Assembly: GCA_001917585.1 (NCBI GenBank)
Contig: MNEG01000169.1
Span: 1-45,397 of the forward strand
Direction: 5' to 3'
Length of the DNA stretch: 45,397 nt
Source of the DNA: Candidatus Rokubacteria bacterium 13_1_40CM_68_15
Lineage (GTDB): Bacteria > Methylomirabilota > Methylomirabilia > Rokubacteriales > CSP1-6
Position numbers and translations under genes: made by a program. Below, in pieces: positions 42,967 to 45,397 of the stretch. The notes below the pieces were generated by a model. The model saw only the letters and a program-made list of their open reading frames with translations, had not been told where the DNA came from and did not search any database. Positions within the stretch are counted from its first letter, which is position 1. Each line of letters begins with the position of its first letter.

Positions 42967-43509
42967 ATGTCCGATGCTCGGAGTCTGAACCGCCGAACTC
43001 TTCTCAAATTCATGACGGCTGGCGCCGTCCTGGCCTGCGCGCGGGCGAGCGCGGCGGCCGAGGTCGACACTCGTCTCGCCACCGACGGCTCTCCCTCCTG
43101 GGTTGCGGTCGTCGACATCCCCGGCGCTCCCGAGGCCGGCAGCAACATCCTCGACATCGCGCTCGACGAGCTCTCGATCGACGCCCGTGAGATGACGACC
43201 GGCGCCGACTGGGACTATCGCATCTACGCCCCGGGTGACGCGCATTACGGAAATGCGACCTTCACGAGGTCGCGCACCCCGGGCACGCCGAGCCAGCTCC
43301 AGCGGTGGTTCGAGGAATGCTCCAAGGGCAAGAACATCCGGAAGAACATCACGGTGACGCTGTTCAAGTCCGACAAATCCGGTCAGCGGACCTACAACCT
43401 GATGGACTGCTTTCCGACTCAGTGGAGCTCCGTCGCCTTCGACACGAGCTCGTCCGTCCAGACCGAGACGATCAGGGTGAAGGTCGGGCGGATCGAGTTC
43501 AAGGTCTAG
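42967..43509 (+). CDS. Tat-signal phage tail-tube-like (gp19) protein
   Basis: 180 aa. Residues 1-31 are a twin-arginine signal: SLNRRTLLKF with R9-R10, a hydrophobic stretch FMTAGAVLACARASAAA and a small-residue cleavage zone. The mature part resembles T4 gp19/TIGR02241 tail-tube proteins: IALDELSIDAREMTTGADWD, YGNATFTRSRTPGTPSQLQR, NIRKNITVTLFKSDKSGQR, CFPTQWSSVAFDTSSSVQTE and IRVKVGRIEFKV. Mature cysteines are C118 and C148. Tail tubes are normally cytoplasmic and assemble with sheath and baseplate proteins, none of which are encoded here. A periplasmic or surface tube or ring is inferred. A second gp19-like gene follows after 30 nt. Confidence 0.8.
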   Translation: MSDARSLNRRTLLKFMTAGAVLACARASAAAEVDTRLATDGSPSWVAVVDIPGAPEAGSNILDIALDELSIDAREMTTGADWDYRIYAPGDAHYGNATFTRSRTPGTPSQLQRWFEECSKGKNIRKNITVTLFKSDKSGQRTYNLMDCFPTQWSSVAFDTSSSVQTETIRVKVGRIEFKV

Positions 43510-43539
43510 GCGCCGCGAGTCGCCCAGGAGGATATGACC

Positions 43540-43965
43540 ATGGCAGAGGCAACCGTCTCCGACAAGTTCGCACAGGTGCGTGGGTTCCAGGTCGAGATCA
43601 GCGGCGCCGGGGACGTCGACGTCGACGGGGCCTGGGAGTCCGTCTCCGAGGGCCTGGTCCTGCTGGATCGTCCGCACCACGCCGGCGTGTGCACGGCCCC
43701 CGAGATCACACTGCGCGGCCCGCTCACGGCCACGCGGAAGGCACTCCTGACGTGGCTCAACAATTCTGCACGGGGGCGGCATGCGCGGCGCGACGTGACG
43801 ATCACCGTCGCTCCGGCCGATCCCGGCCAACCGGCCAAGACGTTCCAGTACCTCGAGTGTTTCATCACGGGGTACGCCATATCGCCACTCGACGCCACTG
43901 ACCCTCGTCAGGAGCCGATCGAGGAGCTTCGCTTCGTTCCGGGCCTCGCCCTCCGCGCACGCTGA
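43540..43965 (+). CDS. Second tail-tube-like (gp19) protein, no signal
   Basis: 141 aa from ATG 43540, chosen over ATG 43534 because AGGAGG (43526-43531) is 8 nt away rather than 2. Tail-tube-like traits: VRGFQVEISGAGDVDVDGAW, APEITLRGPLTATRKALLTW, RDVTITVAPADPGQPAKTFQ, and the terminal LDATDPRQEPIEELRFVPG. It is shorter than usual in the first loop. It also has two cysteines (C51, C107). There is no signal peptide, so it either stays in the cytoplasm or is exported bound to the Tat-targeted partner, as known for Tat hitchhiker complexes. The similarity is weaker than for its neighbour. Confidence 0.6.
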   Translation: MAEATVSDKFAQVRGFQVEISGAGDVDVDGAWESVSEGLVLLDRPHHAGVCTAPEITLRGPLTATRKALLTWLNNSARGRHARRDVTITVAPADPGQPAKTFQYLECFITGYAISPLDATDPRQEPIEELRFVPGLALRAR

Positions 43966-45252: not shown

Positions 45253-45397
45253 ATGGCGACGACCCAGATCGGCCGCCGATCGGTGGGGAAGGCGCTGGCC
45301 ACGCTGGAAGCTCTGGCGGTGGCCCCCCGGCCGGTCTCAGCCGGCGCGCTTGCCCGGTCGCTGAAGCTCGCGCGGCCCACGGTGTACCGCATCCTGT
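45253..45397 (+). CDS. IclR-family transcriptional regulator, N-terminal part
   Basis: 48 codons before the window ends. MATTQIGRRSVGKALATLEA leads into the winged helix PVSAGALARSLKLARPTVYR. IclR regulators pair this DNA-binding domain with a small-molecule effector domain, which is outside the window. ATG 45253 has GGAG 5 nt upstream and is preferred; ATG 45226 is in frame but lies in the operator without a ribosome site. Probably controls the enolase-family gene and possibly the catabolic array. Confidence 0.85.
   Translation, partial: MATTQIGRRSVGKALATLEALAVAPRPVSAGALARSLKLARPTVYRIL

Follow-up and report, generated by a model that had tools for sequence, protein, structure and literature searches.

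A signalled and a signal-less tube gene among metabolic genes

Near the downstream end of the window, the whole stretch of 45,397 nucleotides that we analysed, lie two adjacent forward-strand genes of the tail-tube type. ORF A (42967..43509, + strand) encodes 180 amino acids, and its gp19 domain (residues 70-173; 43174..43485, +) matches PF06841, the T4 gp19-like tail-tube family, at 3.4e-14 and 53.2 bits, above the gathering score of 28.2. It is also matched by the NCBIfam model CIS1_fam (4.2e-6, below the cut-off of that model), and its best match in the PDB is the eCIS tube protein Pvc1 (2e-4). ORF B (43534..43965, +) encodes 143 amino acids, or 141 counted from the ATG at 43540; its gp19 domain (residues 50-123; 43681..43902, +) matches PF06841 at 8.9e-6 and 26.0 bits, slightly below the same gathering score. 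TIGR02241 matches both ORFs, in each case below its cut-off (6.5e-7 for ORF B). The A-type family profile reached Pvc1 (5e-10), the B-type profile (A5) reached 8bl4/Afp1 (3e-5) and also Pvc1, and between them the two profiles extended to the All3324 and AlgoCIS tubes. This profile match to solved tube proteins supports the predicted membership of ORF B in the tube family. AlphaFold models, built on shallow alignments, had pLDDT values of 34 for A and 52 for B. The initial annotation had placed these two ORFs correctly, and its assignment of the pair to the gp19-like family is borne out by the PF06841, TIGR02241 and Pvc1 matches. A scan for promoters and terminators found none.

The tube domain of ORF A begins at about residue 47, after an N-terminal extension that carries a putative Tat signal (residues 1-31; 42967..43059, +; SLNRRTLLKFMTAGAVLACARASAAA-EV). 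The signal consists of an NRRTLLK motif, a short hydrophobic stretch (FMTAGAVLACA) and an inferred cleavage site between AAA and EV; by these three features, ORF A is a predicted Tat-type substrate. Among the 164 ORFs of at least 100 amino acids in the window, it alone had a Tat-like N-terminus under a motif-plus-hydrophobicity rule, which 0.2% of shuffled ORF A N-termini also passed. The Pfam TAT_signal model gave 12.3 bits, below its cut-off of 22.7. All Sec-type and Tat signals reported here were assigned by motif and hydrophobicity, and the rule is strict: the signal of a homologue from SAR202 fails on hydrophobicity despite a textbook RR motif (SRRDFLK). The sequence of ORF B lacks an export signal. 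The initial annotation had likewise described a Tat signal for A and no signal for B, and the SAR202 homologue is also signalled and followed by a signal-less B. The same annotation gave B its own ribosome-binding site. A good Shine-Dalgarno sequence (AGGAGG, 43526..43531, +) is indeed present, but it fits the second ATG rather than the first; because its spacing is better there (8 nt to 43540 vs 2 nt to 43534), ORF B probably starts at 43540.

The nine other ORFs tested, spanning 31.8-45.1 kb, all encode metabolic enzymes apart from one transporter: an acyl-CoA ligase, an enoyl-CoA hydratase, a luciferase-like protein, a glyoxalase, an NMT1-like protein, an amidohydrolase, a TRAP DctM protein, UbiD and an enolase-family enzyme. 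The contig stops at position 45397, which leaves 1.4 kb of visible sequence on the downstream side of the pair. The host genome (G000) holds one PF06841 match above the cut-off. Neither a sheath gene (PF04984) nor gp25 (PF04965) was found in it; the same searches were positive in G100, G030 and G045 for the sheath and in G100, G030 and G247 for gp25. The sheath was also not found in G084, G099, G101 and G102, and was found in the eCIS genome G100; gp25 was not found in those same four genomes, nor in G794. The earlier statement that phage and contractile genes are missing from the vicinity thus stands for the neighbours tested, and extends to sheath and gp25 in the whole assembly. Plasmid matches were weak and distant. 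A phage origin was rejected, given that the phage records and IMG/VR yielded no relative and no phage genes occur among the nearby ORFs tested.

These surroundings bear on whether A and B could form the tube of a functional prophage tail or injection system whose remaining genes lie elsewhere or were not assembled. With the genome 84% complete and the pair close to the contig end, there would be room for such genes. However, sheath and gp25 were not found in the genome, a tblastn search of 50,697 phage records returned no match to ORF A, a search of IMG/VR with A-family patterns found no relative, and an export signal is not expected on a tube that is assembled in the cytoplasm. We consider a working system very unlikely.

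Relatives inside and outside injection clusters

One scan of GTDB species genomes yielded four loci (L002, L003, L004 and L005), and profile searches covered the host's own phylum (95 genomes), Chloroflexota (400), Acidobacteriota (396), Planctomycetota (392), a 10-genome phylum and a 291-genome phylum. Across these phyla, most gp19 matches carry no signal, and in the 291-genome phylum of G098, taken as a negative control, none of the gp19 loci had a signal-like N-terminus.

The closest unsignalled A genes, which belong to the same A subfamily, lie in eCIS loci, all seven of which have a sheath gene (PGVYVEEVDRG) in the cluster, usually with B next to A; none of the seven A homologues carries a signal. 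In the Planctomycetota locus L003, an unsignalled A followed by B sits directly 3' of the sheath gene, and this A is 46% identical to the window A over the mature part. No sheath-like motif was found at the signalled loci within the stretch read. The initial annotation had held that homologues inside contractile injection clusters would speak against its reading; the nearest unsignalled homologues do lie in such clusters, whereas the signalled ones do not. Because these nearest unsignalled homologues sit in contractile injection clusters, the ancestor of the A-B pair was most likely an eCIS tube.

The same comparison removes one earlier argument, namely that two cysteines in each mature part (C118/C148 in A, C53/C109 in B; C24 of A lies inside the signal) could form disulfides outside the cytoplasm. 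C148 does not vary among the A sequences of the A4 alignment, and the unsignalled L003 proteins share both C118 of A and C109 of B. The argument fails because conserved cysteines also occur in an unsignalled eCIS homologue, and we reject disulfides as an export signature.

Signalled relatives take several forms. In SAR202 (Chloroflexota; L002, 2229-3700), a CIS_tube gene of the CIS7 type, the Tat-signalled A and the signal-less B stand together; the CIS_tube protein matches PF19266 at 5.8e-32, and its nearest relative is the CIS_tube of the L003 cluster. Neither sheath nor gp25 was found in that genome. The SAR202 locus keeps all three eCIS tube classes (CIS_tube, A and B), classes that have been named Cis1/5/7 (PMC12210884). 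Its A gene contains an internal TAG stop, so this copy may be decaying. In two further genomes (G084, L006; G1029, L099), A and B are fused in a single chain behind a Sec-type signal. In two others, from two phyla (G030, L018, 8140-9510; G794, L068, 1036-2562), a signal is followed by PF01391 collagen repeats and then by A-B; the tube domains of G030 score below the Pfam threshold and were identified by the A3 profile (1.8e-6), and this genome has sheath and gp25 elsewhere. The A-B collagen gene of L018 is followed by a gene for a 1025-aa secreted-looking protein. G247 encodes a single tube domain behind a Sec-type signal, and G969 one tube domain behind an N-terminal hydrophobic anchor.

We also observed tube domains in other settings. 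A secreted-looking protein of G1036 (L091, 715-2601) joins a partial A domain to eCIS_core (PF13699), a domain usually seen in injection-system cargo. In Acidobacteriota, an RHS-repeat ORF that adjoins an assembly gap (L004, 6708-8843) has at its end an incomplete A domain followed by a complete B domain. At L005 (6045-9769), a very long secreted-looking protein contains a single A-type tube core, with other repeats around it.

In the A-domain tree, seven exported and seven other members form a 14-row group with an SH-aLRT of 87. Placement of the exported A domains in one clade was rejected (p-AU 0.003), and with it a single origin of the exported copies; a pairing of window A with SAR202 A was neither supported nor rejected (p 0.31). 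Since the exported members are not one clade, export was gained more than once: the export signals are lineage-specific gains of more than one origin.

This history matters for the possibility that the pair is a remnant of a lost eCIS, its tube genes lingering with an N-terminal signal that arose by chance or is useless. The distribution is patchy, with any match in 4 of the 95 genomes of the host phylum; the pair is missing from a same-genus genome and from most of the phylum, so no conserved role is visible. The stop codon in SAR202 A and the truncated A domain within the RHS frame of the Acidobacteriota copy likewise fit decay. In contrast, both window ORFs are intact and still show a strong codon-position G+C pattern, a Tat-signalled A plus B is kept in two phyla, and decay is not expected to yield the independent acquisition of signals and collagen stalks. 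We regard a remnant as unlikely, though it deserves more weight than the other alternatives.

A possible sheath-free ring outside the cytoplasm

Our preferred reading, in which our confidence is evenly balanced, is a domesticated eCIS tube pair, sheath-free and exported by Tat with B as passenger, that probably forms a six-domain ring outside the cytoplasm. The A and B tube pair would have been recruited from an eCIS and put to work in the absence of the contractile machinery. Both proteins would fold and associate with each other before leaving the cytoplasm, and the Tat signal of A would carry the A-B complex out. Once outside, three A-B units could assemble into an (AB)3 ring with six tail-tube-type domains, and such rings might be stacked. 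The ring would have a structural or binding role, in the periplasm or on the cell surface, and would not act as an injector. Export, co-export, ring formation and the biological role of the pair are all inferred. Without a sheath, injection by the pair is unlikely, and its task is most economically read as that of a structural or binding ring. The initial annotation, which proposed a non-phage use of the tube fold as a periplasmic or surface ring, channel or filament, is as a whole partly supported.

In four other genomes, A and B are joined in a single exported chain, which supports the view that the two may act together on the exported side. The collagen triple helix is threefold (trimeric). 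With two tube domains per chain, a collagen-stalked trimer would therefore bring together six domains, as in the T4 gp27 trimer. Tail-tube rings consist of six domains, a number that gp27 reaches as a trimer of two (PMC3004832). The Tat pathway carries folded proteins together with passenger subunits, as is known for HybOC and PaoABC (PMC4273604).

Two other readings accept export and differ in what is exported or why. A alone might be exported, periplasmic or lipid-anchored, with B staying in the cytoplasm; B has no signal, and C24 of A, following VLA, resembles a lipobox. K14 of A, however, breaks what we take to be the strict PROSITE lipobox pattern, SAR202 A has no lipobox, and the four fused relatives export A and B in one chain, which makes export of A alone rather improbable. 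Alternatively, the exported tube subunits might work by attaching to other tube proteins and could, for instance, serve as decoys for incoming injection systems or phage tails. Tube subunits are built for binding tube subunits, and some relatives carry a fused surface-type stalk, but no linked defence genes were seen among the ORFs tested (31.8-45.1 kb), and we consider this reading very unlikely.

Beyond the window, we propose more tentatively, at somewhat short of even confidence, that exported A-B pairs are a recurrent extracytoplasmic class of ring or tube, made of injection-system tube proteins without sheath or baseplate, and that at least four phyla arrived at it by separate gains of Tat, Sec or collagen-stalk export. 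The known roles of tail-tube proteins are as components of phage tails and injection machines, put together in the cytoplasm. The tube fold seems to be reused outside the cytoplasm, because relatives in other phyla gained export tags separately. If signalled, sheath-less copies do recur in several phyla, a ring-forming fold would have moved outside for another job. A concrete structural model that can be tested follows from the order of A and B, their fusions and the collagen stalk. Such pairs would escape surveys of contractile injection systems that, like the one in PMC12210884, depend on the presence of baseplate and sheath-initiator genes.

Comparison with known systems

A literature search on exported gp19 or collagen-gp19 proteins found no description of them, and PMC11937823 deals with ordinary eCIS tubes. 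Like the Tat passenger complexes HybOC and PaoABC, the pair comprises a signalled and an unsignalled subunit encoded together; those complexes are cofactor enzymes, and co-export of the window pair is a prediction. The fused relatives resemble T4 gp27/VgrG in having two tube domains per chain, an arrangement in which a trimer yields a pseudo-hexamer (PMC3004832). In contrast to gp27/VgrG, the gp5/spike part is absent and the window domains are separate genes, and the likeness is one of analogy, not of sequence match. Secreted bacterial collagen-like proteins are paralleled by the G030 and G794 relatives, with a signal, PF01391 repeats and then A-B, whereas the window pair has no collagen part.

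The closest likeness by sequence is to the eCIS tube proteins CIS1/CIS5 (Pvc1/Pvc5, Afp1, AlgoCIS), which share the gp19 family and the adjacency of tube paralogues, and the nearest homologues, A and B of L003, adjoin an eCIS sheath. Unlike these tubes, window A has a putative Tat signal, and the pair has metabolic neighbours in a genome in which neither sheath nor gp25 was found. The arrangement is real and unusual, and it belongs to a known group, the eCIS tube proteins.
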